A stretch of DNA of 64,000 bases from Chromatiales bacterium (GTDB taxonomy: Bacteria; Pseudomonadota; Gammaproteobacteria; UBA6429): the NCBI GenBank assembly GCA_027076405.1, contig JALTJN010000515.1, positions 62,001-126,000 on the forward strand, in the 5' to 3' direction. Below, one piece after another: positions 1,704 to 17,293 of the stretch. How positions within the stretch are numbered: position 1 is the first letter of the stretch; the number at the start of each line of letters is the position of its first letter. The notes beneath the pieces are model-generated. The model was not told the origin of the DNA. It was given only the letters and a program-made list of their open reading frames with translations, and made no database searches. The position numbers and the translations under genes are program-made.

Positions 1704-2963
1704 TTAAGCAGAAGCTTCTTCAGCTTTGCGTTCAAACCATTTTTCAGCTTCTTCGTCCCAGCCGTCCATACGAACGTAAGAACATTGACGAGGAGAGCTA
1801 ACCATATGAGGGTTAACATCGATGTCGATGCCTTCAAGGAAGTTAACTAAGCCGATACGCTCAATCATTTCACCAGTACGCTCATGCTCAAGAGCATTTT
1901 CAGCGAAGAAGTCAATGATATCGCCAGCCATTTCAACCAGCTCTTCGTAATCTTCAGCAGTATCAAGCTTCTTAAATGGAACAACTACTGTACCCATTAA
2001 GTCACCAATCTTCAGTGTGCGCTTACCACCGATAAGAATCGATACACCTTTATCATCACCTGGAGATAAAGCTTTAGTCATAACGTTTAAGCAATGCATA
2101 CAACGTACACAGTTGCTGTTGTCTACTGTTAATTCATCGTTGTCTGCTAAAGTCATGCAGTTAGTCGGGCAACGAGTGATTACGTTATCGATGATGTATT
2201 GACGACCTTTAGCTTCGATGAAGTTTTTAACTTCAGCCTGATCAATTTTCATTTCGTCACGCCATGTACCGATTACAGCGAAATCCGCTCGTTCGATAGC
2301 ATTTTGGCAATCATTTGGACAACCTGAAACTTTAAACTTGAATTTGTAAGGAAGTGCTGGACGGTGAACGTCATCAGTAAATTCGTTTACAAGGTGACGG
2401 TGAATTGCATGTTCGTTTGCACAAGATTGCTCACAACGCGCTGCACCAACACAAGACATTGCTGTACGTACACAAGGACCTGCTCCACCTAAATCCCAAC
2501 CATAGTCATTGATTTCATCGAAGAAGTGCTGGATGTTATCAGTGTCAGTACCGATAAACATGATGTTACCAGTTTGACCGTGGAAAGTGATAAGACCTGA
2601 ACCGTATTTTTCCCAGCTGTCTGCCAGTTGGTTCATCATGTCAGTTGTGTAGTAGTTACCTGGAGTAGGTTGTACACGTAATGTGTGGAATTCTTTTGAT
2701 TCTGGGAAGGCATCACCAACTTCAGAAAAACGTGGAATGATACCACCGCCGTAACCGAATACAGATACGGTACCACCTTTCCAATAACCTTTACGAGTTT
2801 CGTAAGAGTGTTCTAATTGGCCAATCATATCGCCAAGCATAGTGTTAATACGTTCACTTGGATGTTCATCACGTAGGCGTTTAAAACCTGAAATGAATGA
2901 AGGCCATGGACCTTTTTCTAACTCATCAAGCATTGGTGTGTCATGAATTGTTGCTTTTGACAT
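1704..2963 (-). CDS. dsrA: DsrA, dissimilatory sulfite reductase alpha subunit
   Basis: A 419-residue alpha subunit, full length. The sirohaem-linked cluster motif is complete: CX5C at 171-177 (CVGAARC) and CX3C at 215-219 (CPNDC). A ferredoxin domain follows at about 264-290 (CPTNC, then CVRCMHC). The start ATG is preceded by a good AGGAGA ribosome site. It is the first gene of the operon, with a 583-base divergent gap upstream towards a plus-strand dioxygenase gene. Together with DsrB it forms the core rDsr enzyme that converts DsrC-bound sulfur to sulfite. Confidence 0.97.
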   Translation of the reverse strand: MSKATIHDTPMLDELEKGPWPSFISGFKRLRDEHPSERINTMLGDMIGQLEHSYETRKGYWKGGTVSVFGYGGGIIPRFSEVGDAFPESKEFHTLRVQPTPGNYYTTDMMNQLADSWEKYGSGLITFHGQTGNIMFIGTDTDNIQHFFDEINDYGWDLGGAGPCVRTAMSCVGAARCEQSCANEHAIHRHLVNEFTDDVHRPALPYKFKFKVSGCPNDCQNAIERADFAVIGTWRDEMKIDQAEVKNFIEAKGRQYIIDNVITRCPTNCMTLADNDELTVDNSNCVRCMHCLNVMTKALSPGDDKGVSILIGGKRTLKIGDLMGTVVVPFKKLDTAEDYEELVEMAGDIIDFFAENALEHERTGEMIERIGLVNFLEGIDIDVNPHMVSSPRQCSYVRMDGWDEEAEKWFERKAEEASA

Positions 2964-3546
2964 TGCGTTCTCCTAAATCGGGTTACCCGTTAGCGCGTTA
3001 CAAAATTTCAAATAAAAGTTTATTAGTATAGCTCTTCTTTTAAAAAGAACTACCCACTTCTTGTGTTGTTATATTTTCAAAGACACCACATATGGGGTCA
3101 ACAAAAATATAACGTAAGTACTTTTTCAGTTGCGACGAAGTCTATGTGTCCCGCGTCTCAACGAAAATCACACTGATGGGGGGTTAAACCAGCTTAATTT
3201 ATCCCTTTTGGGATATAAACAACCTAGCCTAATTCCCATCACAAATAACGTTACTACAGTCTCATTCATCATCAATAGTGATTAACCATCATTAAAACAA
3301 AGGGTTAGCTGCTACTGCATGCTAGGTATTAGTTGCTTATCAGGTCTATGCTTTAATCTCTGCTTTAACAACTTACTTAAAAAACTGAGTTGTTTTACGA
3401 GTGACTACCGGAGCCAGATATAAACATAGCGCTGGAAATAACCTAGTAAAACACTCGGAAATACCGTATAGTTCGTGGGCGTATTTTACTGTTGCAAGCA
3501 GAGATTGCAATACTTTGTTGGGTATAAATTAAGTTTATCTATTATT
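2964..3546. other. Divergent intergenic region between dsrA and the dioxygenase gene
   Basis: About 580 bases with no convincing gene. On the minus strand it holds the dsrA ribosome site and a short palindrome CGGGTTACCCG (2979-2989) just upstream of it. There is also a TATACT box (3025-3030, minus) that could be the -10 of a dsr promoter; I found no clear matching -35. The perfect inverted repeat at 3200-3215 is listed separately. The upstream in-frame extension of the dioxygenase (GTG at 3475) also falls here and is judged non-coding. Promoter calls are weak. Confidence 0.4.
3200..3215. promoter_or_regulatory. Perfect inverted repeat, possible operator
   Basis: TATCCC-TTTT-GGGATA is a perfect 6+4+6 inverted repeat about 240 bases upstream of dsrA and 330 bases upstream of the divergent gene. 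It has no following T-run, so it is not a terminator. It could be a regulator site; chance cannot be excluded. Confidence 0.25.
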
Positions 3547-4479
3547 ATGGTTATAAAACACTCACCTTTCTCGTTACATCCGGAAGCACAAACTGCATAC
3601 CAGCAATGGCGAGAATGGAAAATTTCTCTGTATCCGATAAAGGTTGAGGAACTGGTTGTCACTGTGGATAATCCTTTCGAACTGACAGAAATTGAAAAAT
3701 CTCAAATGCTGACCTGTTTTTCCCGTTTCAATATGGCTATTTATACTATTAATAATAGATTTGATTTTGGTGATAAGAAAATTGTTGAGTCAATAGGGCA
3801 AAACTTCGGCTTAGTACGTCTCGATAATAATCTGGGTTCGGATAGTGACAGTATTACTTCTTTACAGGTTATTGAGGGGGGACGTAAACAAAGCTATATC
3901 CCGTACAGTAATCGAAAGTTAAGCTGGCATACGGATGGTTACTATAATCTTCCTGAAGAACAAGTAAGGGGAATAGTTTTACATTGTGTGAATAATGCTG
4001 CTTCGGGTGGAGAGAATGCACTTTTAGATCATGAAATGTTGTACATCCACTTGAGAGATCAAAATCCCGCCTATATATCAGCGTTAATGAAAGAAGATGT
4101 TCTCACTATTCCTGAGAATATTGAGAAGGGGGTGAAAATTCGTGATGCACAGACGGGCCCCGTTTTTTCTATAGATGAAAATACCGGAGCACTGCACATG
4201 CGTTATAGTGCTCGTAAGCGCAATATCATTTGGGCTGAAGATGAAACAACACAAAAAGCAGTGAATGCAATAGATGATTTTCTTGCCAGTGATTCTTGTT
4301 GGATATTACGCCATCGTCTTGAACCTGGGCAGGGGCTTATTTGTAATAACGTATTACATAATCGTACTGCTTTTGAAAATGATGATGGTGAACATCAGCG
4401 ACTAATTTTTCGTGGTCGCTATTATGATCGTTTGGCGGACACGACATTTAGTGACACTGTAAAAGCAATGTCACAATAA
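3547..4479 (+). CDS. TauD/TfdA-family Fe(II)/2-oxoglutarate dioxygenase
   Basis: A protein of about 310 residues. The metal-binding HxD lies in SWHTDGYY (H128, D130), and the distal histidine and 2-oxoglutarate-binding arginine in VLHNRTAF and RLIFRGRYYDR near residues 280-300, so the active-site set appears complete. Members of this family hydroxylate small molecules such as taurine or gamma-butyrobetaine; the substrate here is unknown. ATG 3547 is preferred over GTG 3475 because the extra 24 residues look non-coding, though neither start has a strong ribosome site. It leads a plus-strand set (61-residue unknown, Cas6-like, DsrC-like) next to dsrA, hinting at sulfur-linked chemistry. Confidence 0.85.
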   Translation: MVIKHSPFSLHPEAQTAYQQWREWKISLYPIKVEELVVTVDNPFELTEIEKSQMLTCFSRFNMAIYTINNRFDFGDKKIVESIGQNFGLVRLDNNLGSDSDSITSLQVIEGGRKQSYIPYSNRKLSWHTDGYYNLPEEQVRGIVLHCVNNAASGGENALLDHEMLYIHLRDQNPAYISALMKEDVLTIPENIEKGVKIRDAQTGPVFSIDENTGALHMRYSARKRNIIWAEDETTQKAVNAIDDFLASDSCWILRHRLEPGQGLICNNVLHNRTAFENDDGEHQRLIFRGRYYDRLADTTFSDTVKAMSQ

Positions 4480-4524
4480 ATATTACTATGAAGTTTGTAT
4501 AAAGAAATTTAAAGGTTAAATAAT

Positions 4525-4710
4525 ATGTTGTACTTAAGTGAAGTATTAATGGAAGGGCACGCACTGGAAAGTTTTAAAGAACTTTGTAATGCCGTTTCCG
4601 AAAAAGGTAAAGCAGGTGAAATGTTTTTTCGTATTGATGTAAAACCTCCTTTTACGGATACACCAGAAAACTGGGAAGAACAACTTGAGGCCGCTTTTAC
4701 CTCTATTTAA
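4525..4710 (+). CDS. Small conserved-context protein, unknown
   Basis: A 61-residue acidic protein (MLYLSEVLMEGHALESFKEL...). No domain recognised, no signal peptide or membrane segment. It has a plausible ribosome site (AAGG about 10 bases upstream), and its stop lies 41 bases before the favoured start of the Cas6-like gene; the alternative start at 4710 would overlap its stop as TAATG. Sandwiched between the dioxygenase and the Cas6-like gene, it is probably part of the same transcript. Real coding is supported by its position and natural composition, but the function is unknown. Confidence 0.6.
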   Translation: MLYLSEVLMEGHALESFKELCNAVSEKGKAGEMFFRIDVKPPFTDTPENWEEQLEAAFTSI

Positions 4711-4751
4711 TGCTTGTATATAGGCTTAATATTACATACTGGAATTATTTT

Positions 4752-5435
4752 ATGTACTGGAATGAAGAGAAAAAAAGAGAGAAATACCAAATCCCCGATG
4801 ACGTGGTAGATCTTTCTTTCACAATTAAGTGCAAGTGTTTGCCTCTTGAACACATGCAAGAACTTTCTGACAGCTTAACGAAAAGTTTACCCTGGCTTGA
4901 AGATAATAAATTTGCAGGTATTCATCCGATTAATGGCGCCGAATCAGGTAATGGTTGGGAGCGTTCAAATGATCCAAATGAACTTATTTACTTATCTCGT
5001 CGTCAGAAATTGACGTTACGTATTCCAAAGGAACATATTGCTGATGCAGAAAGCCTGGTTGGTAAAACCATTAATGTTGCAGGTTATGATATAGATCTGG
5101 GTAAAACATCAATTAAAAAATTGAGTGATTTGCCAACGACTTTTTGTCGTTCAATTTTAATTAGTGAACGCATGAATGAAGATGATTTTTTACAATGGGC
5201 ATTTGATGAACTTAAATCACTGGATATTGCGGTACGTAAAATGATGCCCGGCAAAGAACGCGTGATCAATTTACCTGACGGCAATGAGAGAATTACACGC
5301 AGCTTAATGGTAGCGGAATTAACACAGGAAGAATCTGTGCGCTTGCAGCAGCATGGAATGGGTAAAGGCAGAAATTTAGGCTGTGGAATATTTTTGCCGC
5401 AAAAAGACATTAAAGCGGTAAATTCTGATGATTAA
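4752..5435 (+). CDS. Cas6/Cmx6-like RAMP-fold protein without CRISPR
   Basis: A 227-residue protein starting MYWNEEKKREKYQIPDDVVD. It matches my memory of the family annotated 'type I-MYXAN Cas6/Cmx6', which also occurs in sulfur bacteria away from CRISPR loci. Visible features are the VVDLSFTIKCKCLP opening strand, H58 in a GIHPINGAESGNGW stretch, and a C-terminal glycine-rich loop GMGKGRNLGCGIFLP (about 202-215) as in RAMP/Cas6 RNA-binding folds. No cas gene or repeat array lies in this window. ATG 4752 is preferred over 4710 because GGA lies 8 bases upstream and the family starts MYW. Its neighbours are a dioxygenase and a DsrC-like protein. RNA cleavage here is an inference only. Confidence 0.75.
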   Translation: MYWNEEKKREKYQIPDDVVDLSFTIKCKCLPLEHMQELSDSLTKSLPWLEDNKFAGIHPINGAESGNGWERSNDPNELIYLSRRQKLTLRIPKEHIADAESLVGKTINVAGYDIDLGKTSIKKLSDLPTTFCRSILISERMNEDDFLQWAFDELKSLDIAVRKMMPGKERVINLPDGNERITRSLMVAELTQEESVRLQQHGMGKGRNLGCGIFLPQKDIKAVNSDD

Positions 5436-5559
5436 AGGCTTTAAATTGGTTGGGTTTTCTGATTAAATAAGCGCCCGTTAATATAGCGCGAAGTTAGTTA
5501 GACAACGCTGCTGGAAAGATTTTTAATAATTTTAGATAAACTCGTTAGAGGACATGAAA

Positions 5560-5898
5560 ATGGCTTTAGAAGTAAACGGAAAATCAATTGCAACAACAGA
5601 AGATGGTTATCTTGAAGATTTAAATGATTGGGACTTAGATGTTGCTCAAGCAATTGCTGATGCAGATGAACTTCCTATGACTGATAGACATTGGGACGTT
5701 GTAAAGTATTTACGTGATGAGCATGTAAATAACAACGGTGCAGAGCCAAATGAACGCGGTATTTTGAAAGCAATGAGTAAACTATGGGGCGAAAAAGTCA
5801 GTTCTAAAGTTATGTACGAGATGTTTCCAACTATGCCTTCAAAACAAGGCCGTAAAATTGCCGGTTTACCAAAAAGTACTCGTAAAGGCGGTTATTAA
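5560..5898 (+). CDS. DsrC/TusE-family protein lacking both C-terminal cysteines (RspA-like)
   Basis: A 112-residue DsrC-fold protein: ALEVNGKSIATTEDGYL at the N-terminus, DWDLDVAQAIA, and a C-terminal arm KQGRKIAGLPKSTRKGGY. In DsrC this arm reads like KQGCKIAGLPKPTGCV, with two redox cysteines that carry sulfur. Here both positions are arginine, and the protein contains no cysteine at all. It therefore cannot carry persulfide or form the trisulfide. DsrC homologues without these cysteines have been termed RspA (regulatory sulfur-related protein). ATG 5560 is chosen because GAGGA sits 7 bases before it; ATG 5554 is too close. A regulatory or scaffold role is inferred. Confidence 0.88.
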   Translation: MALEVNGKSIATTEDGYLEDLNDWDLDVAQAIADADELPMTDRHWDVVKYLRDEHVNNNGAEPNERGILKAMSKLWGEKVSSKVMYEMFPTMPSKQGRKIAGLPKSTRKGGY

Positions 5899-6064
5899 TT
5901 CGCCAAATAGTCGGCAGCGAGTTAATTCAAGCCTGATCTACACCCAAATGGGTATAGTCTGAATTAAATTAGCCTGTTAAATTTCGGTTTAAGGATATGT
6001 TGTCCAACCAAATTTTTCGTTTTTCGACTATACTCGAAAAGCAAAACATACTGAGGATTTAAAA

Positions 6065-6280
6065 ATGAGTGAAAAAGCAAAATTAATCGCAGAAATGCTC
6101 GAAATGCAAAAGATGTTTCAAGACTACGAACATAAGAATGGCGTTGATTCTGCGGATTACTTCGCAGCTAAAGAAGGCCATCCTTTATTCGGTTATACTG
6201 AAAAATATCAAGAGTTAGCAAATAAAGTTGATGCTATGGCTCATGAAGAAAAAGGTTCAACTCGTTGGTTCCAATCTTAA
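6065..6280 (+). CDS. Small soluble protein, unknown
   Basis: A 71-residue charged protein beginning MSEKAKLIAEMLEMQKMFQDYEHKNGVD, probably helical, cytoplasmic, with no cysteine. ATG has a GAGG ribosome site at normal spacing. A TATACT box flanked by TTTTCG/CGAAAA arms lies about 25 bases upstream and may be its own -10. A strong terminator follows directly, so it ends the cluster that began with the dioxygenase. I do not recognise the family. Confidence 0.65.
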   Translation: MSEKAKLIAEMLEMQKMFQDYEHKNGVDSADYFAAKEGHPLFGYTEKYQELANKVDAMAHEEKGSTRWFQS

Positions 6281-6302
6281 TAACGAATTGAATGCTAAGA
6301 AA

Positions 6303-6338
6303 AGGCGCTGCTGATTTTATTCAGCAGCGCCTTTTTTT
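6303..6338 (+). terminator. Rho-independent terminator
   Basis: A 12-bp perfect stem (AGGCGCTGCTGA / TCAGCAGCGCCT), 6-base loop, then a run of T. It lies just after the 71-residue gene and closes the plus-strand sulfur-associated cluster. Confidence 0.9.
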
Positions 6339-6357
6339 ATGACTAAAAATATTTATA

Positions 6358-6450
6358 GCCACGAAGAGCACCAAGAAAAATAATCTACAGGGAACATGCT
6401 GCACAGGGGAAATATTTGATCTTCTTGGCGTTCTTCGTGTCCTTAGTGGC
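6358..6450. repeat. Imperfect long palindrome (dispersed-repeat-like)
   Basis: The left arm GCCACGAAGAGCACCAAGAA (6358-6377) matches the reverse complement of 6422-6450. The right arm differs mainly by an extra 9-base unit inside it. The arms are separated by about 44 bases. The 'CACGAAG..' words resemble repeated intergenic sequences seen in many proteobacterial genomes. No coding potential. Confidence 0.6.
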
Positions 6451-6458
6451 CAAATTTT

Positions 6459-7133
6459 TTAGAGTTCAGACCACATACGAAATAAATTCACGTATGACAC
6501 ATCCACTTGTTTTGTCTCAACTTCATCAGGCCGATTTTTAAGTAAGGATTCTCGCGCCTGATTAAGCTGATACAGTAATTCACGTTTAGCCGGATCACGT
6601 ATCATGCTTTGAGACCATGTTACAGCCACTAAACGAGTTCCTTTAGTGACTTCTGCGACATGGTGCAGGCTTGATGAAGGATAGACGACAGCCGAGCCGG
6701 CTGCGAGTTTAACTTTTTGTTCACCAAAGGATGTTGTGATAACAAGCTCACCACCTTCGTATTCTGAAGGCTCATTTAAAAAAACAGTTGTGGAAATATC
6801 CGAGCGGTATTGTTGACCACCCGTTCCCATAATAGGATCATCAACATGATCACCATACGTCATACCCTTGATATAACGTGCGTAATAGGGTGCAGCAACC
6901 CGTAAAGGAATGACAGCAGCTTTGAATTTATCATGCTGAACCAAACTGCCCATTACGATATTATTAAGTTGTTGCATTTGTTTATCGTCTGCAGCAAGTT
7001 CTTCGTTATTTTTTACACGCTTGGCAGCCATTCCGGCAGAGAACGTACCATCAATAAACTGAGCTTTATCTAATACCTGAGCGATAAAGTGAAGTCGTTC
7101 TTTATCAAGAATATTGGGGATTGTAATGAGCAT
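6459..7133 (-). CDS. PKHD-type Fe(II)/2OG hydroxylase (PiuC/YbiX family)
   Basis: A 224-residue protein of the PKHD-type hydroxylase family, full length. The iron ligands are HxD in YGDHVDDP (H96, D98) and a distal histidine in LHHVAEVTKGTR (about 157), followed by the 2-oxoglutarate-binding arginine. Family members are cytoplasmic and often linked to iron uptake, but here no TonB-dependent receptor is nearby. It stands alone on the minus strand between two plus-strand units. The substrate is unknown. Confidence 0.9.
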   Translation of the reverse strand: MLITIPNILDKERLHFIAQVLDKAQFIDGTFSAGMAAKRVKNNEELAADDKQMQQLNNIVMGSLVQHDKFKAAVIPLRVAAPYYARYIKGMTYGDHVDDPIMGTGGQQYRSDISTTVFLNEPSEYEGGELVITTSFGEQKVKLAAGSAVVYPSSSLHHVAEVTKGTRLVAVTWSQSMIRDPAKRELLYQLNQARESLLKNRPDEVETKQVDVSYVNLFRMWSEL

Positions 7134-7214
7134 AAATGATTACCTAATTCAAACAGTGATGTATAATAATACCTTATATATTAAGCAAAAACCTCATGGT
7201 TTGAAGGAATTAAA

Positions 7215-7532
7215 ATGTTATTAAATGTTGCTATAGACGGTCAAAATGTTGATATCAATGTACCGGATTCGATGTTGTCTGAAGCTCGGGATTTTTTTGC
7301 GAAAGTCGATTCAGATTTAGATAAAGGATATCAAATGGGACGGTTCTGGGTTGAAAACCCGAATGGAGAACAGCGCTGTCAAATTGCTGCAGATAAACTG
7401 GTAACAGCCATTGAAAATGAGAATAAAAATATGGCAACGATGATGTCTGCTTATATTTTAAGCAAAGCGCCCCATATTGAAAGTGTGGTTGTAGATTCCA
7501 GTGATGAAATTCAGGAAATTCATTTTATTTAA
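7215..7532 (+). CDS. Small cytoplasmic protein, unknown
   Basis: A 105-residue acidic protein (MLLNVAIDGQNVDINVPDSML...). No cysteine or signal peptide; no domain recognised. A GAAGGAATTAAA ribosome region precedes the ATG. It stands 31 bases upstream of the inner-membrane protein of the cytochrome cluster and could be co-transcribed with it, but the composition differs from the Lys-rich cluster proteins, so it may belong to an older local background. Confidence 0.65.
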   Translation: MLLNVAIDGQNVDINVPDSMLSEARDFFAKVDSDLDKGYQMGRFWVENPNGEQRCQIAADKLVTAIENENKNMATMMSAYILSKAPHIESVVVDSSDEIQEIHFI

Positions 7533-7563
7533 ATACAAATTTGGTTAAATACTTTCTTAAGTT

Positions 7564-8541
7564 GTGAATAAAATCACAGCGTCCCACCCCTTTATAACTT
7601 TATTATTAGGTTTATATACGTTGTTGTATAGGCCAGATATGAATAATGAAGCGATTATCGATAAATCAAGTAGCAATCCTTCTGCTGTAATGTCTATCAT
7701 TCGATTTACAATTAAAAGCTCAAGTAAAATATTTTACTTGAGCATTTTTATTTTAATCTATTTCGGCTGGAAAAATAGAGAGTTTAGCAATCTTACCCCT
7801 GAGTCCGGTGCCGGCTATTGGCTTGGCATCATAGGGGGGAGTTTAATGTTGCTTCTCCTTCTTTATCCCTTACGTAAAAAAATCCGCTTTTTTGACTTAT
7901 TTGGAAAAATCAAATACTGGTTTAAGTTACATATGCTTTTTGGCGTACTCGGACCAGTAGCTATTTTATTTCATGCAAATTTTTCGTTAGGCTCTACAAA
8001 TAGTAATGTTGCCTTTTTTTCTATGGTTGTTGTTGCTACAAGCGGGCTTGTCGGTCGCTATTTATATGCAAAAATTCATCATGGATTATATGGACGTAAA
8101 GCAAGTTTAAAGGAATTACGTGAGTCTTTGAAGGAATCAAGAGGTAAGCTTGGTACTCATCATTCGTTAACCAAAAATGTTGTTGAGAAAATTAAAACTG
8201 CTGAGAGGCTATTATTACGTAATAGAAATATATTCGTTTCAGTATTGTTGTGGCCGTTCATTTTTATTAAAACTGAATTGTTAAAAAGATCCGTCGGTAA
8301 GGCAATCTATAAAACTTATCAGCAACTTGCTACTGAAAGAGGCTGGGACAAAGGTATGGTGCGTTCATTGAGCAAGGATGCCAATAAAGAGGTTCAGCCT
8401 TATATCAACGGTCTATATGAAATGTATGGTTTTAGAATATTTGAAGGATTATTTTCTTTTTGGCATTTTTTGCATTTACCTTTATTTATTATGCTTGTTT
8501 TTAGCGGTATTTTACACGTTATTGTAGTGCACAGCTATTAA
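7564..8541 (+). CDS. Inner-membrane protein, cytochrome b/ferric-reductase-like
   Basis: Up to 325 residues, with hydrophobic segments near 45-65, 82-100, 122-140, 147-165 and 295-320. Histidines lie in or beside membrane segments: WFKLHMLFG, ILFHANFS, KIHHGLYG, WHFLHLPLF and ILHVIVVHSY. That pattern suggests b-type haem binding, as in cytochrome b561 or ferric-reductase-like membrane proteins. A charged cytoplasmic loop lies at about 170-230. Start GTG 7564 or ATG 7639 (25 codons later) cannot be separated by eye. It is followed 6 bases later by the first multihaem cytochrome, so it is the likely quinol- or reductase-side entry of the conduit. Confidence 0.65.
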   Translation: MNKITASHPFITLLLGLYTLLYRPDMNNEAIIDKSSSNPSAVMSIIRFTIKSSSKIFYLSIFILIYFGWKNREFSNLTPESGAGYWLGIIGGSLMLLLLLYPLRKKIRFFDLFGKIKYWFKLHMLFGVLGPVAILFHANFSLGSTNSNVAFFSMVVVATSGLVGRYLYAKIHHGLYGRKASLKELRESLKESRGKLGTHHSLTKNVVEKIKTAERLLLRNRNIFVSVLLWPFIFIKTELLKRSVGKAIYKTYQQLATERGWDKGMVRSLSKDANKEVQPYINGLYEMYGFRIFEGLFSFWHFLHLPLFIMLVFSGILHVIVVHSY

Positions 8542-8547
8542 ACTCAA

Positions 8548-10149
8548 ATGCGATTTTTACAAAATACATTTTTTATATATATTGCATTATTGCTTGGTTA
8601 TAATTCAATAGTTTCTGCCAATCCATTTGAATCATTGGTGATGCCTGGTAAAGTCATTGAAGGCCATAAAAAATATGAATCAGACTGTAGTAATTGTCAT
8701 GAACTATTTAGTACACGAGGACAAGAGAAGCTTTGTCTGAACTGTCATAAAAAAGTCAATAAAGATGTTAACAGACGAAAAGGTTTTCACGGGAAAAATA
8801 AATCAGTCAGAATTGCACAATGTAAATCTTGTCATACAGAACACAAGGGAAGACATGTAGATATTATTAAGTTTGAAAAGGAGATCTTTGATCATAATAA
8901 AACTGATTTTAGGTTAAAGGGGCGACATACTTCAATTGAGTGTCATGCTTGTCATAAGAAAAATAAAAAATACCGTGAAGCTAAATCACAGTGTCGTGGT
9001 TGCCATTTAAAAGAAAGTCCGCATAAAAAAGCAAAAGCGAAGAAAAACACCTTTAAAATATGTTCAGCCTGCCATCGTGCAACAGGCTGGGATAAAATGG
9101 TTTTTAATCATGCTCGAAAAACTAAATATAAATTGACTGGGGCACATAAAACTGCATTGTGCCAATCATGTCATATTAATCAGCGCTATAAAAAAACACC
9201 CAAAAAATGTATTTCATGTCATAAAATTGATGATGTTCATCAAAATAAAAATGGTAGTAAGTGTAATAAATGTCATACAACAAAACAGTGGGGCAAGATA
9301 ACATTTAATCACAATCGGGATACAAGTTTCAGGTTAAAGGGGAAACATAAAAAAACACCTTGTAAATCCTGCCATAATAAAATTTCTTTTAAGAAAAAAT
9401 CAAAGAAGAAGAAAAAGGCAAGAAAATGTTATTCATGTCACAGCTATGATGACAAACATAATGGGGTCTTTGGTCAAAAATGTAATTCTTGTCATCATGA
9501 AAAAGACTGGGGTTGGGATAAGAACAGATTTGACCATGCAAAAGAAACCAAGTTCGCATTAGAGGGGCAGCACAAAAAAATTGGCTGTGATTATTGTCAT
9601 AAGGTGAATAAGAAAAAGAAAAAATTAAAATCCGGTTGTATAAGTTGTCATAAAAGTGATGATGTTCATCATGGGAATTTAGGTGAAAAGTGTAACTCAT
9701 GCCATACCCCGTTTAGTTGGAAAAAGAGAGTGAAATTTGAACATGATTTAACCCGCTTTCCTTTAATAGGCATGCATAGCGAAGTGGCGTGTGAAGAATG
9801 TCATAGCAGCACGGGATACAAAAAAATTAGCAAATCATGTGTTACGTGTCACAAGAATGATGATTTTCATAAAGGAAAATTGGGAAATAATTGCGATCGG
9901 TGCCACACTCCTAATGATTGGGGAGTCTGGTTTTTTAGTCACAATAAACAGTCAAGATTTAAGATAAGAAATAGTCATAAAAAGGTTCATTGTCACTCTT
10001 GTCATAATGTACCGATAGAAAAAGTTGCTCGCATACCGAGAGATTGTCAAAGTTGTCATTCAACGGATGATCCTCATAATGGTCAGTTTGGAGCACGTTG
10101 TAACGATTGCCATAATACAAAAGATTTTAGTCAGATAAATATGAAGTAG
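8548..10149 (+). CDS. Periplasmic multihaem cytochrome c, 21 CxxCH
   Basis: A 533-residue secreted cytochrome. The signal peptide is MRFLQNTFFIYIALLLGYNS followed by IVSA, with cleavage likely after SA. I count 21 CxxCH motifs spread over the whole mature chain, arranged in repeats of about 55-60 residues of the type KCxSCHK.DDVH.G..G.KCNxCH...W....F.H. Distal histidines (FNH, FDH, GKHK) are available for bis-His ligation. The chain is extremely lysine-rich (for example KKKSKKKKKARK), so strongly basic. It is co-directional and nearly contiguous with the membrane protein and the second cytochrome. Role: electron wire in the periplasm; partner unknown. Confidence 0.92.
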   Translation: MRFLQNTFFIYIALLLGYNSIVSANPFESLVMPGKVIEGHKKYESDCSNCHELFSTRGQEKLCLNCHKKVNKDVNRRKGFHGKNKSVRIAQCKSCHTEHKGRHVDIIKFEKEIFDHNKTDFRLKGRHTSIECHACHKKNKKYREAKSQCRGCHLKESPHKKAKAKKNTFKICSACHRATGWDKMVFNHARKTKYKLTGAHKTALCQSCHINQRYKKTPKKCISCHKIDDVHQNKNGSKCNKCHTTKQWGKITFNHNRDTSFRLKGKHKKTPCKSCHNKISFKKKSKKKKKARKCYSCHSYDDKHNGVFGQKCNSCHHEKDWGWDKNRFDHAKETKFALEGQHKKIGCDYCHKVNKKKKKLKSGCISCHKSDDVHHGNLGEKCNSCHTPFSWKKRVKFEHDLTRFPLIGMHSEVACEECHSSTGYKKISKSCVTCHKNDDFHKGKLGNNCDRCHTPNDWGVWFFSHNKQSRFKIRNSHKKVHCHSCHNVPIEKVARIPRDCQSCHSTDDPHNGQFGARCNDCHNTKDFSQINMK

Positions 10150-10162
10150 GGAAGCTCGGTAT

Positions 10163-11347
10163 ATGCAGGCTGGATTAAATATGATGAATGGAAACACCAA
10201 ATCTTTAAATTTCACAACAAAATTTTTATTATTGATATTATTATTCACGTTTTCGTTTGTGCTTGATGCAAAAGAAAGCACATATAATCATGATAAAACA
10301 GGCTTTGAGCTAACTGGTCCGCATGAACGTTTAAGTTGTGATTCCTGTCATATACGTGGCGTATTTAAAGGCATTCCAAAGCAATGTGAAGGATGTCATG
10401 ATAGTGGTAGTCAGATAGGTTCAAGTATTAAACCTAATAATCACATTCAAACATCGGGGAGTTGCGAAGGTTGTCATGCAGGTAATACATGGGTAGTTAC
10501 AGGTTTTAATCATGACAGTATTACCGGTTCATGCATAAGTTGTCATAATGGAACAACAGCGACTGGAAAAACAACTAATCATGTTCAGAGCACTAATACT
10601 TGTGATGATTGCCATAGTCAGATTTCCTGGATCCCGGCACGTTTTGATCATTTAGCCATAACGGGTAGTTGTGTCTCATGTCATAACGGCATAACGGCGA
10701 CCGGAAAATCACCTAACCACATCAGCTCATCAGACACCTGTGATAATTGTCATGTTACGGTTACCTGGTCAACGAATCGTGTAGATCACAATGATGTTGT
10801 TGGTGGTAGTTGTTTTACATGTCATAACGGTACAACTGCCACTGGAAAACCGTCAAATCATATTTCTAGCGGAACAGTATGTGATGATTGTCATAGTACC
10901 AGTGCCTGGATACCGGCTAATTTTGATCATGATACTATTACTGGTTCATGTACAAATTGCCATAATGGTGTGACTGCGGTTGGTCCATCAACAGGGCATT
11001 TTATCACCTCATTACCGTGTGAAACCTGTCATACAACTATTTCATTTATTCCTGATATTTATAATCACGCCAGTACTGATTTTCCGAATCACCCTAGTGA
11101 TCCAACATGTATAAAATGTCACGCTGGTAATAATAGTACTGTTACGTGGAATACGACTTATTCACCAAATTGTGGTGCATGTCATGAAGCGAAATTTAAT
11201 ACCAAGCCACATAAAAAAGTCGATGGTGTTTCAAATTATACTATTAGTGAATTACAGGATTGTACGAATAGTACATGTCACCTGCTAAATCCGGATCTTA
11301 CGATTAAGCAAACATATAATCCAAGGCATTTTTTAAGTGGCTGGTAA
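10163..11347 (+). CDS. Secreted multihaem cytochrome c, 13 CxxCH plus CX4CH
   Basis: A 394-residue secreted protein; signal peptide hydrophobic core FLLLILLFTFSFVLDA (about 21-36). It has 13 CxxCH motifs and a C-terminal CX4CH (CTNSTCH). The centre is built of about four tandem units of roughly 42 residues, each with ITGSCxxCHNG..A.GK..NH then CDDCH....W.PA.FDH, giving two haems per unit plus distal histidines. The same unit style appears in the giant cytochrome at 25988. The start could be ATG 10163 or 10181. It is encoded 13 bases after the 21-haem protein and before the outer-membrane barrel. Confidence 0.9.
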   Translation: MQAGLNMMNGNTKSLNFTTKFLLLILLFTFSFVLDAKESTYNHDKTGFELTGPHERLSCDSCHIRGVFKGIPKQCEGCHDSGSQIGSSIKPNNHIQTSGSCEGCHAGNTWVVTGFNHDSITGSCISCHNGTTATGKTTNHVQSTNTCDDCHSQISWIPARFDHLAITGSCVSCHNGITATGKSPNHISSSDTCDNCHVTVTWSTNRVDHNDVVGGSCFTCHNGTTATGKPSNHISSGTVCDDCHSTSAWIPANFDHDTITGSCTNCHNGVTAVGPSTGHFITSLPCETCHTTISFIPDIYNHASTDFPNHPSDPTCIKCHAGNNSTVTWNTTYSPNCGACHEAKFNTKPHKKVDGVSNYTISELQDCTNSTCHLLNPDLTIKQTYNPRHFLSGW

Positions 11348-11366
11348 TATATTTAATTAATCTTCT

Positions 11367-13400
11367 ATGTTTTCGATGTATCCTAAATTTAAATTAAAGA
11401 CATTCAGTCTTTTTCTGGTTCTTTTGTTCCCGGGGATGCTGCTGGCGAAAACGACGCTGTATAAATATGCAGTAAGCCTCGAGTCTAGTCAAAAAGAAAT
11501 TCTTTCTTCAATTAATTCGAATGATCTTAAACTAAGTAATAAGTATAAAGTCTATCAGACAAAAGTTCGGCTTGGGAAAAATAAATCGCTATATCGTCTG
11601 CGAGTGGGGTTTTTTAAATCAAAAAAAGAAGCAAATCGTATAGTAAGAAAGCTTAAATTTAAATATCCTAAATTGTGGATAGATAATATTCGTAAGGAAG
11701 ACAGGAAAGTAATGCTAAGCTGGTTAGCTTCGGTTAAGGAAACAGGAAAAAATAGTAGAAATAGTAAAAGGAATGTTTCAGTAAAACAATCCTTAACTAA
11801 AGAGAAAAAGGCAAAGAAACTGATGGCACGAGCTAACCTTGCTATGAAAAATAAAAAATACCGATTGGCTGCCGGACTTTATACACGAATTATTAGTTTA
11901 AAGAACACGTCACAACATCAGCAAGCAATGGAGTTTTTAGGGTTAGCCCGTGAAAAAAATAACCAATTGATTCATGCTCGTGCTGAATATCGGCTATATT
12001 TAAAAAAATATCCGAAAGGTGAAGATTCTATGCGTGTAAGGCAACGTTTGTTGTCTTTAAAAACATTATTACTAAAACCGAGAAAGCGATTAAGAAATCG
12101 GAAATTAAAACTCTCTAACTGGCAGTTTTTTGGCAGTTTGTTGCAATATTATCGCTTGGATTCTTTCAACTCCAATCAGGCCAACACAAATAATGAAACA
12201 TTTTCTACTAACGTCAATTTTTTATTACGAAAAAGAACTGAGTCATTAAATATAAAATCTCAGTTTAATGCCAGCGATCTGGAATATATTAATAACCCTT
12301 TACGTTCGGGTAAAGGGAGGATTAACGTTTTTTTTGTAGATATAGCAGATCTTAATAGTAATAAGTCAATGCGGTTAGGCAGACAAACACAAAGTAAAGG
12401 TGGCGTGTTAGGAAAAATGGATGGTGTCTGGTTAGGTTATAGAATTAATCCTACATGGAAAATTAATCTGGTCTCGGGCTATCCTGTTCAAACGAGCTCG
12501 TCAAATTTGGCCCAAACAAACCGTCCCTTTTTTGGTGTAAGTGCAGATATTAACTCGGCAGCAAAGAACTGGAATTTTAATATTTATACGATCAATCAAA
12601 AAGTGGATTCTATTCTTGATAGAAATGCAATTGGTGGCGAAATTCGATATCGAAAAGGGAAACAGAATCATTTTATGCTTGTTGATTACGACACTTATTT
12701 TTCAGTATTAAATACATTGTTTTATGTGGGTAATTGGCGTTTTCGTAACAATAATTCTATTGTGCTAACTGTAAGTCATAGGAATAGTCCGATCTTAACA
12801 TCCACAAACGCGATAGTGGGTCAGACCACTGCAAATATAGAGGGCTTATTATTAACTTACTCTGAAGAACAATTAAAACAATTTGCAAAAGATCGAACGT
12901 CAAAATATAACTCGGCAGTTATTTCAACATCAATACCATTATCAAAAAAATGGACATTTTTGGCTGATGGAACAATATCAAGTTTGTCTTCATTACCTGC
13001 ATCTGGTGGAGTGCAAGCGATTGAAGGTACTGGAAATGAGTTTTTTTATATCGCACAATTAATTGGCTTCAATGTTTTTAATTCGGATGAGACAACCCGA
13101 TATGCATTGCTTTATGATGATACAAAAACATTTCAACGAACACGGTTCAGACTTAGTGCACGTTTTAGACTGAAAAATAAAAAATGGCGTTTTCGACCTC
13201 AGTTAACATTGGAAAAAAGAAATAATAGCAATGGTGGCACAACAAATAAAATTAAAGCGGCGCTTAAATTTGATTATAAAATAAAGAGAAAGCTTAAGAT
13301 TGAGTTTGATATAAGTTATGAAGCTGGAAAAACTACTTTCCCGGTGAGTTTAACTGAAAATAATTATTCTATTTCTGCCGGGTATATTTGGGATTTTTAA
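11367..13400 (+). CDS. Outer-membrane beta-barrel with N-terminal SPOR/TPR-like region
   Basis: A 677-residue protein. The signal peptide is about residues 1-27 (LFLVLLFPGMLLA). Residues 28-110 resemble a SPOR-type fold (repeated YKVYQTKVRLGKNKSLYRLR-like strand with GFFKSKKEA helix), and 140-225 are TPR-like helices. From about 245 the chain alternates in short amphipathic strands (LNIKSQFNASDL, MRLGRQTQ, YRKGKQNHFMLVDYD) and ends in the aromatic-terminated SAGYIWDF, the usual signal for outer-membrane barrel assembly. It follows two multihaem cytochromes, as porins do in porin-cytochrome conduits. The SPOR part may anchor it to peptidoglycan. Confidence 0.75.
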   Translation: MFSMYPKFKLKTFSLFLVLLFPGMLLAKTTLYKYAVSLESSQKEILSSINSNDLKLSNKYKVYQTKVRLGKNKSLYRLRVGFFKSKKEANRIVRKLKFKYPKLWIDNIRKEDRKVMLSWLASVKETGKNSRNSKRNVSVKQSLTKEKKAKKLMARANLAMKNKKYRLAAGLYTRIISLKNTSQHQQAMEFLGLAREKNNQLIHARAEYRLYLKKYPKGEDSMRVRQRLLSLKTLLLKPRKRLRNRKLKLSNWQFFGSLLQYYRLDSFNSNQANTNNETFSTNVNFLLRKRTESLNIKSQFNASDLEYINNPLRSGKGRINVFFVDIADLNSNKSMRLGRQTQSKGGVLGKMDGVWLGYRINPTWKINLVSGYPVQTSSSNLAQTNRPFFGVSADINSAAKNWNFNIYTINQKVDSILDRNAIGGEIRYRKGKQNHFMLVDYDTYFSVLNTLFYVGNWRFRNNNSIVLTVSHRNSPILTSTNAIVGQTTANIEGLLLTYSEEQLKQFAKDRTSKYNSAVISTSIPLSKKWTFLADGTISSLSSLPASGGVQAIEGTGNEFFYIAQLIGFNVFNSDETTRYALLYDDTKTFQRTRFRLSARFRLKNKKWRFRPQLTLEKRNNSNGGTTNKIKAALKFDYKIKRKLKIEFDISYEAGKTTFPVSLTENNYSISAGYIWDF

Positions 13401-15244
13401 AAGATCCCTAAAAATCCGTTTGCGTTTTCTGCTTTTTCAATTAGCTTGACAGTATTACGATACCCCTTCGATTTTGCAATGTCATATGCCGTTTTTCGGT
13501 TTTTATTTCTAATTCTGATATCAGCATTAGATTTTATCAATAATTTAACCAGTTTGTATTTCCCCGCTTGTGCAGCAGATATTAAAGCTGTGTTTCCATA
13601 TTTATTTTTTGTGTTTATACGGGCTTTATTTTCCAATAAGTATTTACATGCATTGTAATATCCTTTGCCAGCAGAAATTATTAAGGGGGTATTCCCACTG
13701 TTGTCAGTTATATTTAAATTGACCCCTTTACTTATTAGCAGCTTGATAGTGTTAGTGTGTCCGTTTGCAGAAGCATGAAGTAGTAGTTGTCTTGATTTTG
13801 ATGTGCTTAGGTTTGTTAAATTATTTTTAATTAGATAATTGATAATGTTTTGACGGTTGTTTGTCTGGGCTATGTCAATTAATGTTCTTTTCTTTTTATC
13901 TTTAAAAGAAGTTGCCGCATTAAATTTAATAAGTTTTTTAAATGGACGTATTTTTCCTGCGTCAGCAGCATGCATTAAAGCAGTCATTCCATTTTTATCT
14001 CGTATATTTATTTTTGCTTTTTTATTTAATAAGTACTCTAATATTTTATACTTGCCTTTAGAAGCGGCTATCATTAAAGGGGTTAGTCCGTTCTTGTTAC
14101 TTTTGTTAATTAATGCAGAATGCTTTATTAATATGGCAACAGATTTTAAATTCCCTCTTTCTGATGCGCGCATTAATGCAGTATTACCATCCTTATCTGT
14201 TATATTAGGATTTGATTTTTTCTTTAGTAATGATTTTAAAAGGTCATTTTTCCCTCTCCAGGCTGCAGTAATGAGTATTGGCCACTGACCTTTTGCAAGT
14301 TTTGTTTTTGTGTTGATTTTTCTTTTAATTTTGGATGAAGGTTTAGCTCCATAACTCTCAAGTAAATCCATTATTTTGGAATGTTGCTTTACCTCGGCAA
14401 AATGGTAGGCTGTATTTCCATTGACATCTTTTAAGTTTATTTTAGCGCCTTTGCGTAACAAGTAAGATGCCGATATTAAATCGTTTACAAGTACAGCTTT
14501 CATTAAGGGAGTAATACCTTTGATTGATGCGGTATTAATCGTAGATCGGCTTTTTTGCAATAGTAGTTTAACTGTGTCTGTTTTTTTGGAATGAATAGCT
14601 ATTAGTAGAGGCGTGTTTCCGGAGCGATCTTTTATTTTTAGATTAGGTTTACATTTTAAAATTAACTTTGTGATCTTGTTGTTACTAAATTTAATGGCTT
14701 CTATTAATGGTGTGTTCTTATCAGTGTTTTTTATATTGATTCTGGAACATTTCTTTGTGAGTTTTTTGACGGCTTTAGTATTTTTGTTTTTTATTGCGTT
14801 AAATATATCTGAAGGTTTGAGTTTTTTGCTGTTTCCATTAAGTAATACACCGGATTTGATTTTTAGGATTGATTTTTGATGGCCCTTTTTAGCAGCCATT
14901 TTATACCAGCGTAAAGCTTTATCATTGTTTTCTTTTACTCCATAACCATTTTCAAGAAAAATCCCGCAATTATATTGCGCTCTAACATTTCCATTTTTTG
15001 CAGAACGCTTAAACCAGTAAAAGGCTTTTTTGTAATTCTTGCGGGTACCTTTTCCATTTCGGTATAATAATGCCAGATGGTATTGAGCATCTGCATTATC
15101 TCTTGCTGCTTGTTTTCCAAGTAATTTTAGTGCTTTGTTGTAGTCATGTAGACGTAAAGCAACTTTAGTTTGATATGAAATTGCTGCGTAGCTTTGATGT
15201 GGGAATGAAATGAGAATTATGAAAAAAACAACCAGTTTCATCAT
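13397..15244 (-). CDS. Secreted Sel1-like and ankyrin repeat protein
   Basis: About 615 residues from the start MMKLVVFFIILISF, which gives a clean signal peptide ending SYAA; the longer reading frame to 15370 is rejected because it overlaps the upstream gene. Mature residues about 40-110 hold two to three Sel1-like repeats (AQYHLALLYRNGKGT..., AQYNCGIFLENGYGV...). After that come about a dozen ankyrin repeats with the typical NGNTPLI..A...G / LL.KGA..N pattern. It is lysine- and asparagine-rich like the cytochromes. The start lies one base after the stop of the oxidoreductase gene, so translation is likely coupled. Its stop overlaps the convergent barrel stop. Probably a periplasmic scaffold. 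Confidence 0.85.
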   Translation of the reverse strand: MMKLVVFFIILISFPHQSYAAISYQTKVALRLHDYNKALKLLGKQAARDNADAQYHLALLYRNGKGTRKNYKKAFYWFKRSAKNGNVRAQYNCGIFLENGYGVKENNDKALRWYKMAAKKGHQKSILKIKSGVLLNGNSKKLKPSDIFNAIKNKNTKAVKKLTKKCSRINIKNTDKNTPLIEAIKFSNNKITKLILKCKPNLKIKDRSGNTPLLIAIHSKKTDTVKLLLQKSRSTINTASIKGITPLMKAVLVNDLISASYLLRKGAKINLKDVNGNTAYHFAEVKQHSKIMDLLESYGAKPSSKIKRKINTKTKLAKGQWPILITAAWRGKNDLLKSLLKKKSNPNITDKDGNTALMRASERGNLKSVAILIKHSALINKSNKNGLTPLMIAASKGKYKILEYLLNKKAKINIRDKNGMTALMHAADAGKIRPFKKLIKFNAATSFKDKKKRTLIDIAQTNNRQNIINYLIKNNLTNLSTSKSRQLLLHASANGHTNTIKLLISKGVNLNITDNSGNTPLIISAGKGYYNACKYLLENKARINTKNKYGNTALISAAQAGKYKLVKLLIKSNADIRIRNKNRKTAYDIAKSKGYRNTVKLIEKAENANGFLGIF

Positions 15245-15245
15245 G

Positions 15246-16553
15246 TTATGCTTGACCATGTTTAGTTTCAACTTCAATTCCGATTTCTTTGAGAAACGGG
15301 GTAGGTAATATACCGCCAGCGCATACAATAACGCCATCATTTTTGACTTTTTCTTCATTATCACCAACATTTAAAACAACATCATTTTCTTCTATGGTTT
15401 TAACTGTTGATGGTAGTACCAGTTTTAAATTTCCATCCTTAACGGCTTGCTTTATTTTGTCCTGGTTTTTTTGTTTTGCGCGAGAGAAAGATTCGCTGCG
15501 ATATGAAATAGTTACTTGTGTCCCTTTTTCTGCTGCAATACTTAATGCGGCTTCAAGTGCACTATCACCACCACCGACAACAAGCACATGCTTGTTTTCA
15601 TATTGAGCAGGATCTATTAATCGATATACGACTTTAGGCTGCTCTTCTCCGGGAACACCTAATTTCCTTGGTGTACCACGTCTTCCAATTGTTAATAATA
15701 CTGAGCGCGTTTTATAGGTGTTTTTATTTGTTGTTACTTCAAAACCATTAGCTGTTTTTACTATGTTGTCCATTTTTTCTTTGTAATTGATTTTTAATTG
15801 CGTTTTCTTTTCAATCGCCAGCCACATTTTTAATAAAGCTTCTTTTGTTGTCTCCCTGATTTTAATTTTTCCAATTACCGGTAAGTTAACCGGTGCCGTC
15901 ATTACAACTTTACCGCGAGGAAAATTAAAAACTGTGCCGCCTAAAGAATCTTGTTCTAATGTTACAGCCCGCAACCCATGTTGTTTTGCTGCTAAACTTG
16001 CCGAAAATCCGGCAGGGCCTGCTCCAACAATAATAACATCAAGATCTTTACCTTTGCCTATACCGCTTAATTTGCGTATAGATTCCATTGCCTGACGACC
16101 TTGTTCAATTGCATTACGAATTAATCCCATACCACCTAATTCACCGGCAATAAATATTCCTGGTATATTTGTTTCAAAATTTTCTGTGACATGAGGAATA
16201 TCAATACCCCGTTTTTCGGTTCCAAAAACGAGTGTGATAGCATCAAAAGGACAAGCTCTTTTACAGGCGCCATGTCCGATACATTTAGTTGGATGAATCA
16301 GATGAGCTTTTCCTTTAATGAGGCCTATCACTTTTCCTTCCGGACAAGCTGTCGTGCAGGCACCACAACCCAGGCATTTACCGGGATCGATAACAGGATG
16401 CAAAGAAGCTGGCTCGGTAAGGCCGGCCTCAGTTACTTCGTGGAGTGTCTTACGGCTGGTTTTGTGTTCTTTTTTAGTAAATGAATAATAAACGAGAATA
16501 AACACGACGGGGATAAGATAAAATAGCCACGTAATGAGGTTTTCTGTAAGCAT
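15246..16553 (-). CDS. Membrane-tethered 2x[4Fe-4S]/FAD/NAD(P) oxidoreductase
   Basis: A 435-residue protein. One N-terminal membrane anchor (about 6-25) is followed by two [4Fe-4S] ferredoxin motifs (CLGCGACTTACP and CIGHGACKRACP, about 60-105), then a thioredoxin-reductase-like fold with FAD motif VGAGPAGFSA (about 177-186) and an NAD(P) motif VVGGGDSALEAA (about 325). The redox CxxC of true thioredoxin reductase is absent, so electrons should pass between NAD(P)H, FAD and the iron-sulfur clusters rather than to a disulfide. Its position in the cytochrome cluster suggests it feeds or drains the membrane electron path. It is coupled to the Sel1/ankyrin gene. Confidence 0.85.
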   Translation of the reverse strand: MLTENLITWLFYLIPVVFILVYYSFTKKEHKTSRKTLHEVTEAGLTEPASLHPVIDPGKCLGCGACTTACPEGKVIGLIKGKAHLIHPTKCIGHGACKRACPFDAITLVFGTEKRGIDIPHVTENFETNIPGIFIAGELGGMGLIRNAIEQGRQAMESIRKLSGIGKGKDLDVIIVGAGPAGFSASLAAKQHGLRAVTLEQDSLGGTVFNFPRGKVVMTAPVNLPVIGKIKIRETTKEALLKMWLAIEKKTQLKINYKEKMDNIVKTANGFEVTTNKNTYKTRSVLLTIGRRGTPRKLGVPGEEQPKVVYRLIDPAQYENKHVLVVGGGDSALEAALSIAAEKGTQVTISYRSESFSRAKQKNQDKIKQAVKDGNLKLVLPSTVKTIEENDVVLNVGDNEEKVKNDGVIVCAGGILPTPFLKEIGIEVETKHGQA

Positions 16554-16696: not shown

Positions 16697-17293
16697 TTAG
16701 GCAAAAACAATCCAGGTTGTTGCAATATATTTTACCCCTTCGTTTAACGTGACAGCACGGTGCTCATGTGTCCAGAAAGGTGGAAATAGAACTAACTTTC
16801 CTTTTTCCGGTTTGATTTTGATATCTTGAAATAAAAATTCTGTTTCGCCGCCGGGCCCCGGTACATCATTGAGGTACCAGAGTGCGACTAATTGTCGCTG
16901 GCTAAAGTCATGAGAGCCACCATCAATATGCCAGTGATAATATTCACCCGGGTTATAGCGTTGAATACCATAACCCATGTCTTTGAAAGGCCCTTTGAAA
17001 TATGGGTAAGCTTCTCGAAACTCTTTAATTGCAATGCCCATAGAGCGAAATAAATTATTATCAACATCTTTCCAGTGCTCTTTACCGCTGACAACGAGAT
17101 CGGTCGTTTTTTTCACACTGCTATCTTGTGAGACTGTCTGGCCAATTCGCCCCTGATATTGATCTTCAGTATGTTCTTCAAATCGCTTTATCATATCGTC
17201 ACATAATGCGGCCGGTAGGGCGTTATGCTTTTCAAATATAAAGGTGTTTTCTTTTACTTCTTTGATTGTGGTGAGTGCATCAGTTTGAGACAT
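16697..17293 (-). CDS. 2OG-Fe(II) oxygenase, prolyl-4-hydroxylase-like
   Basis: A 198-residue single-domain oxygenase. Iron ligands are visible as HxD in YYHWHIDGGSHDF (H122, D124) and the distal histidine in PFWTHEHRAV (about 175), with the family's GETEF loop (PGPGGETEFLF). Cytoplasmic, no signal peptide. It starts 20 bases after the 350-residue gene at 17314 and is probably co-transcribed with it. Substrate unknown; a protein or peptide side chain is usual for this fold. Confidence 0.88.
   Translation of the reverse strand: MSQTDALTTIKEVKENTFIFEKHNALPAALCDDMIKRFEEHTEDQYQGRIGQTVSQDSSVKKTTDLVVSGKEHWKDVDNNLFRSMGIAIKEFREAYPYFKGPFKDMGYGIQRYNPGEYYHWHIDGGSHDFSQRQLVALWYLNDVPGPGGETEFLFQDIKIKPEKGKLVLFPPFWTHEHRAVTLNEGVKYIATTWIVFA

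Follow-up and report, generated by a model that had tools for sequence, protein, structure and literature searches.

A cluster of six genes at positions 7639-16553 of a 64,000-nucleotide stretch of Chromatiales bacterium DNA (assembly GCA_027076405.1, contig JALTJN010000515.1; the whole stretch is called the window here) raises the question of what stands at the inner end of a predicted electron conduit through the cell envelope. The four plus-strand genes (7639-13400) encode an inner-membrane protein (IMP), two multihaem cytochromes and an outer-membrane porin, and the two minus-strand genes encode an Fe-S/FAD/NAD(P) oxidoreductase (OXR), directly followed by a secreted Sel1/ankyrin-repeat protein. 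An earlier note on this DNA had read the cluster as an electron conduit of separate design. An envelope electron conduit is still the best reading, predicted from the genes; as for the design, the absence of any MtrB or MtrA family match agrees with the note, but the core had already been described in 2017 as PCC3. The answer favored here, with somewhat better than even confidence, is a PCC3-type conduit with a dedicated membrane-anchored Fe-S flavoprotein, the OXR, as its inner end, which would be linked to NAD(P) rather than only to quinone.

PCC3 was put forward by He et al. (PMC5566968) as a predicted porin-cytochrome cluster. Its definition, in the text consulted, names a porin, multihaem cytochromes of two kinds (extracellular and periplasmic), and an IMP some 300 residues long with SGxxG and two WX3HX13H motifs. 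The four-gene core, known here from its genes, is filed as PCC3 following this published description because gene order, the 21-haem cytochrome and the IMP signature agree, and its reading as a new design was therefore rejected. The order IMP, periplasmic cytochrome, extracellular cytochrome, porin is also that of Slit_1446-1449 (PMC12016527), and in the window the stop-to-start gaps between these genes are 6, 13, and 19 nt. Further points in common are the IMP motifs, the 21 haems, the low number of residues per haem, a second cytochrome rich in Thr, Ser, Ala, and Gly, and the barrel. In contrast, the second cytochrome has 13 CxxCH motifs against a published overall median of 34, although this count falls inside the 10-35 range of Gallionellaceae (PMC10734462), and the OXR and the Sel1/ankyrin protein are not mentioned as PCC3 parts in the main-text passages searched of PMC5566968, PMC10734462, PMC12442390, and PMC8788666. 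The same holds for the main-text passages searched of PMC12016527, PMC13386937, PMC13322032, PMC11475568, and PMC11748539, supplements, figures, preprints, and subscription papers being outside this scope; Figure 6 of PMC5566968, likewise outside it, may show neighbor genes. Within these limits, the core is known as a 2017 prediction and the OXR association was not met in the literature searched.

The association was followed in a set of loci obtained by scanning genome contigs with the IMP alignment (the best 80 of 372 relatives). Of the 80 loci, 72 have an OXR-like open reading frame (ORF), 66 an ankyrin-matching ORF, 49 a porin, and 63 at least two cytochromes. For the 33 loci with ample flanks (>7 kb left and >9.5 kb right), the corresponding numbers are 31, 30, 32 (related porin), and 30, and in one of the two without an OXR (L004) the gene lies about 0.7 kb past the locus edge. 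The gap between OXR and IMP is below 1 kb in 44 of 73 loci, window included, and the OXR is on the strand opposite to the IMP in 61 of 73. It can adjoin the IMP divergently, precede it in the same direction, or lie beyond the porin as in the window and in L001, L003, L005, L007-L009, and L062, where the OXR pair is placed 6.5-7.6 kb away yet kept; in L018, the OXR alone follows the porin. Loci with both IMP and OXR are titled Gammaproteobacteria, Alphaproteobacteria, Nitrospirota, and Nitrospinaceae.

At the genome level, a single OXR at E ≤1e-30 was found in 11 of 12 genomes and none in the twelfth. Larger samples were scored with cut-offs of E ≤1e-20 for the IMP and E ≤1e-60 for the OXR (alignment A2 for the first set, A4 for the other two). 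The 369 genomes from the class of G001, whose locus is titled Gammaproteobacteria, gave 42 with the IMP, 44 with the OXR, and 41 with both; the class of G380 (titled Emcibacteraceae, Alphaproteobacteria; 289 genomes) gave 3, 3, and 3; and the phylum of G381 (titled Nitrospirota; 148 genomes) gave 18, 15, and 14. Among the pooled 806 genomes, 58 have both genes, 5 the IMP only, 4 the OXR only (G110, G190, G313, and G733, G110 and G313 being partial), and 739 neither. Both genes lie on one contig within about 13 kb in 50 of the 58 (37/41, 2/3, and 11/14) and on different contigs in the other 8. Moreover, five genomes (G045, G048, G113, G312, and G329) have two IMPs and two OXRs, and the double matches in G349 (IMP) and G046 (OXR, with an internal stop) look like pieces of one gene. 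In the genome samples examined, the OXR is a near-obligate companion of the IMP; this strongly supports counting the oxidoreductase as part of the system, as the earlier note did, and the co-conservation set there as a test held. According to the published PCC3 model, the IMP would be a quinone-reactive cytochrome b, and the OXR would act in another step such as ferredoxin exchange or redox sensing. Quinone linkage was proposed by analogy with cytochrome b subunits (PMC5566968), and later papers treat PCC3, in the text consulted, as one possible iron-oxidation route (PMC12442390, PMC10734462, PMC12016527). However, the near one-to-one link, including the five two-copy genomes, exceeds the needs of a side role, and this model is considered rather unlikely.

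The anatomy of the OXR bears on what such a companion might do. Its description as a membrane-bound Fe-S/FAD/NAD(P) oxidoreductase was confirmed, with one N-terminal membrane helix, the Fe-S motifs CxxCxxCxxxC and CxxHxxCxxxC, and a FAD/NAD(P) part of the YpdA/thioredoxin-reductase-like fold. The second motif (residues 91-101), with His in the usual place of Cys, is invariant in 46 of 46 OXRs and is a candidate site for a His-ligated Fe-S cluster. Compared with YpdA/Bdr and thioredoxin reductase, the fold is the same, whereas the membrane anchor, the two Fe-S motifs, the lack of a redox CxxC, and an FAD segment apparently placed in front are different, and the score against the YpdA family (175.8 bits) is below its cut-off (339.9). 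No CxxC occurs after the Fe-S region in any of the 46 OXRs, whereas the window's own TrxB has CATC at 136. This lack counts against a thiol-reductase role, and for this reason the reading of the OXR as an ordinary disulfide reductase was rejected. The ferredoxin-like cluster 360 of PMC10734462, listed in a table there for 41 genomes (the PCC3 periplasmic cytochrome for 42), was a tempting identity for the OXR but is not claimed, because that cluster includes a haem motif and CxxCH is absent from all 73 OXR ORFs.

The OXR is also probably circularly permuted, with the C-terminal FAD segment moved ahead of GxGxxG. The canonical C-terminal FAD segment of thioredoxin reductase finds its best position ahead of GxGxxG in 46 of 46 OXRs, with low scores of 1.3-7.7 bits (median 4.5) against -0.2 for the best reversed control. 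Conversely, for most of seven thioredoxin-reductase-like proteins, the OXR segment has its best match at the C-terminal FAD motif, with weak scores; in L082, another site is slightly higher. When the segment is shifted to the end, the canonical score rises in 29 of 35 OXRs (median +1.1 bits), and a shuffled segment gives a median of -0.9; the other 11 of the 46 were dropped because the pattern was missing or no score was returned. Solved chains among those listed align to OXR residues 165-435 only, most leaving a C-terminal stretch of theirs unmatched; a sequential aligner would give the same in any case.

In the partner gene, both the Sel1 and ankyrin repeats and a signal-like N-terminus were confirmed, as claimed. 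A Sel1/ankyrin ORF follows the OXR on its strand, at ≤400 nt, in 62 of 73 loci including the window, in every case with a match to the window protein's Sel1 region. Both repeat types serve in protein binding, and the cysteines of apocytochromes have to be in reduced form; with this gene order, such background would suit biogenesis factors, the OXR and the Sel1/ankyrin protein loading or folding the large cytochromes and carrying no electrons in the conduit. This reading is quite improbable: the OXR has Fe-S and flavin sites but no CxxC after its Fe-S region, and it is retained in four loci in which no Sel1/ankyrin match was found, namely L041 (titled Gammaproteobacteria), L067 (Rhizobium), and the two Thiobacillus loci L058 and L068. 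Because some loci do without it, the Sel1/ankyrin protein itself is read as probably a periplasmic scaffold or assembly factor.

On the membrane side, the IMP is a probable di-haem b protein. The paired histidines noticed earlier are those of two exact WX3HX13H motifs, which in the 300-residue form stand at 94 and 275, with SGxxG at 135, and none of 20000 shuffled IMP sequences contained two WX3HX13H motifs. An alignment of 25 chosen homologues, window included, shows W119, H123, H137, S160, G161, G164, W300, H304, and H318 (325-residue numbering) as invariant. Among 81 IMP ORFs (the loci plus the window), both histidine motifs are found in 80 (exception L024) and SGxxG in 80 (exception L079). 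Five hydrophobic segments were obtained in a Kyte-Doolittle scan, the motifs lying within or bordering the second, third, and fifth, and an extra hydrophobic stretch near residues 28-44 is visible by eye only; the published criterion is five transmembrane helices with motifs on TM3, TM4, and TM5 (PMC5566968). The IMP has no Pfam match at E ≤0.01, and so none to the ferric reductase domain PF01794; a recognizable ferric-reductase homologue was rejected, the profile comparison being nonsignificant. In some Nitrospirota loci or genomes (L010, L021, and G671), the IMP ORFs reach 720-782 residues, which suggests an N-terminal extension, a fusion, or merely a long open frame upstream.

The motif counts given in the earlier note for the two cytochromes, 21 and 13 CxxCH, are exact, the latter protein having also one CxxxxCH, and they are far above chance, with at most 3 CxxCH in 1000 shuffles of each. 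The proteins have 25.4 and 30.3 residues per haem, respectively, the published range being 22-39 for the periplasmic cytochrome of PCC3, and the fraction of Thr, Ser, Ala, and Gly is 0.358 in the 13-haem protein against 0.206 in the 21-haem protein. A signal-like N-terminus of the 21-haem protein is seen by eye, under the hydropathy threshold applied. By analogy with PCC3, the 21-haem cytochrome is probably periplasmic and the 13-haem cytochrome extracellular. In the 62 loci with two cytochromes in order, window included, the one after the IMP has 21 CxxCH in 49, and the second has 9-67 with a median of 19; the published PCC3 median for the periplasmic cytochrome is 21 (PMC5566968), and Gallionellaceae clusters have 21-27 and 10-35 haems (PMC10734462). 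Other multihaem proteins were observed. A 1143-residue protein at window 25988-29419 (+), about 12.6 kb from the conduit's porin, has 36 CxxCH, a PKD-like domain, and, by eye, a lipobox-like N-terminus, and is a probable surface cytochrome; it matches second cytochromes of other PCC3 loci, perhaps mostly via haem motifs. Besides, L009 and L062 have two more multihaem ORFs (18 and 11-12 CxxCH, 781-1234 residues) just upstream of the IMP.

The outer-membrane barrel, whose prediction had been set as a test, held in an AlphaFold2 model built from an alignment of 37 porins (the window plus 36 of 44 locus candidates), with a mean pLDDT of 88.3, a pTM of 0.61, and block pLDDT values that mostly exceed 90 within the barrel. 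The model shows strands of the SPOR region at 34-107, helices at 140-234, and 22 strands at 253-676. All 50 listed Foldseek matches are outer-membrane beta-barrels (such as FimD, OprD-type, AlgE, and MOMP), but their TM-scores by query length are low (0.18-0.36), so they give a fold class and no specific relative, and the absence of MtrB among these 50 has no firm meaning. Of the SPOR/TPR region noted earlier, SPOR passes the Pfam cut-off and TPR remains below it, though a helical repeat region is modeled; DUF481 is a weak match, and a BamD match in NCBIfam is below cut-off. An MtrCAB-type conduit was rejected, because no MtrB/MtrA family match was obtained in Pfam or NCBIfam. Unlike MtrCAB, MtoAB, and PioAB, the cluster has no MtrB/PioB-type match for the barrel in those scans (MtrB models are presumably present in both libraries), no decahaem family above cut-off (the 13-haem protein matches DmsE in NCBIfam at 65.5 bits against 192.2), and no recognized CymA-type protein. 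No family of the Geobacter OmbB-OmaB-OmcB system was named in the same scans, where the presence of such models was unchecked. Alternatively, the cytochromes might store electrons in the periplasm or serve a soluble partner, and no electrons would leave the cell; this is very improbable given a well-modeled barrel encoded beside them and a related porin in 32 of the 33 ample-flank loci.

In the favored conduit with an NAD(P)-linked inner end, the chain would run from NAD(P)H through FAD, Fe-S, and two b-haems to the 21 c-haems, and from there by way of the barrel to the 13 c-haems. The OXR would use FAD to exchange hydride with NAD(P)(H), and its Fe-S clusters would pass single electrons, on the cytoplasmic side, to the two b-haems of the IMP, which would carry them over the inner membrane to the 21-haem cytochrome; this, in turn, would span the periplasm to the barrel and the surface second cytochrome. 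Such a system would be comparable in operation to an NADPH oxidase or a ferric reductase (NOX, FRE) that is divided among separate proteins and continued across the outer membrane. The IMP HX13H pairs were already likened to these domains in PMC5566968, and the dedicated flavoprotein makes the comparison closer because a flavin donor now joins a di-haem membrane module: in both cases an NAD(P)H-FAD module would feed a two-haem-b membrane protein with HX13H pairs. The differences are that here the polypeptides are separate, Fe-S clusters and a thioredoxin-reductase-type flavoprotein are predicted, and electrons would be handed to c-haems, with no significant sequence relation to the window proteins. 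The presence of the OXR in nearly every examined genome with an IMP suggests a conduit tied to NAD(P)H inside the cell. Going further, we propose, tentatively and with less than even confidence, that PCC3 acts across the envelope as an NAD(P)H:extracellular oxidoreductase. In it, a circularly permuted flavoprotein with Fe-S clusters, one at a site that includes His, would feed the two-haem IMP and the cytochrome wire through the periplasm, so that the conduit would be coupled to pyridine nucleotides, either in place of the quinone pool or in addition to it.

Given the rest of this model, there is about an even chance that electrons flow mainly outward, from NAD(P)H to an extracellular acceptor, a direction favored by redox potential and membrane potential. 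The same anatomy could run inward, from extracellular iron, minerals, or partner cells through the IMP and OXR to NAD(P)+ for carbon fixation, but transfer to NAD(P)+ from donors such as Fe(II) is energetically uphill and opposed by the membrane potential, and some loci are titled Emcibacter and Thalassolituus, usually heterotrophs. An NAD(P)-linked inner end would nonetheless suit reductant supply, and PCC3 occurs in iron oxidizers and autotrophs (PMC5566968, PMC10734462). Also, in CL21 the inner-membrane gene of one PCC3 copy rose as iron-oxidizing ability appeared (PMC12442390), which fits inward flow. On the other hand, in strain ES-1 the two PCC3 clusters were lower with Fe(II) than with thiosulfate (PMC8788666); this lack of induction counts mildly against Fe(II) uptake as the main PCC3 job. 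Inward flow is judged unlikely, its chances overlapping with those of the NAD(P)-linked conduit as a whole.

Several other points weigh against an NAD(P)-linked conduit through a di-haem IMP. Co-occurrence shows functional linkage and not electron transfer between OXR and IMP, and the Fisher p of 2e-77 for the pooled genomes is only a guide because related genomes are nonindependent and G001, G380, and G381 were known to have both genes. The IMP-only genomes, G203 (E 3e-33) and, from the Nitrospirota set, G682, G691, G699, and G788 (E 9e-26 to 4e-32), are all weak matches, yet six other weak IMP matches in the Nitrospirota set have an OXR. L055 has an IMP and a 27-CxxCH protein, but no OXR was found in its genome and no porin. 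The hhalign comparison of the IMP with 10 PF01794 proteins gave a nonsignificant E of 0.076 (reversed control 0.34), a remote relation being possible, and no solved-structure relative turned up by sequence; for these two reasons, the haem-b assignment rests on the motifs. He et al. modeled the IMP as quinone-linked (PMC5566968), PCC3 function is described as unverified (PMC12442390), and no biochemistry for any PCC3 part was met in the literature searched.

With respect to gene limits, the starts GTG 7564 for the IMP and 15370 for the Sel1/ankyrin protein are probably to be replaced (Table 1). The IMP probably starts at ATG 7639 because most of the closest homologues (120 listed of 4234 matches) have 299-301 residues, and the Sel1/ankyrin protein probably at 15241 or 15244 because the hydrophobic signal-like N-terminus is found there.

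Table 1. Genes of the conduit cluster, in window positions.
Feature	Position	Strand	Description
IMP	7639..8541	+	300 aa inner-membrane protein; two WX3HX13H and SGxxG; probable di-haem b protein
Multihaem cytochrome, probably periplasmic	8548..10149	+	533 aa; 21 CxxCH; lysine-rich
Second multihaem cytochrome	10163..11347	+	394 aa; 13 CxxCH; T/S/A/G-rich; probably extracellular, by comparison with PCC3
Outer-membrane porin	11367..13400	+	SPOR domain; helical TPR-like region; 22-strand modeled barrel; C-terminal Phe
Secreted Sel1 + ankyrin repeat protein	13397..15241	-	start 15241 or 15244; frame opens at 15370
OXR (Fe-S/FAD/NAD(P) oxidoreductase)	15246..16553	-	one N-terminal membrane helix; two Fe-S motifs; YpdA/thioredoxin-reductase-like domain

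Around the cluster, dsrB and dsrA are encoded at window 578-2963 (-), both above NCBIfam cut-offs; because of them, a sulfur-oxidizing host, as in the earlier note, is plausible. Close to dsrAB, a Cas6-family protein (PF09559) is encoded at 4710-5435 (+), with no CRISPR array in 2900-7600 and only two weak two-copy repeats. Proteins of the 2OG-Fe(II) oxygenase type lie on both sides of the cluster, at 6459-7133 (-) and 16697-17293 (-); among the 80 loci, the latter has matches in L001, L003, L008, L009, and L062 and the former only in L001.

Because the titles of the loci with IMP and OXR span several lineages, PCC3 may serve sulfur oxidizers, nitrite oxidizers, and heterotrophs alike. In other systems, sulfide oxidation is coupled with the reduction of Fe(III) (PMC12545173), and this would be a possible use of the conduit in the dsrAB-bearing organism of the window. 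PCC3 is a candidate for iron oxidation and an extracellular electron route, and the OXR is a candidate for its missing inner end, one that predicts a reaction open to direct measurement. If this is true, the quinone-only model would be challenged and the usually assumed direction could change; moreover, the OXR would provide an extra genome marker, and the cluster a self-contained unit through which NAD(P)H and electrodes could exchange electrons.

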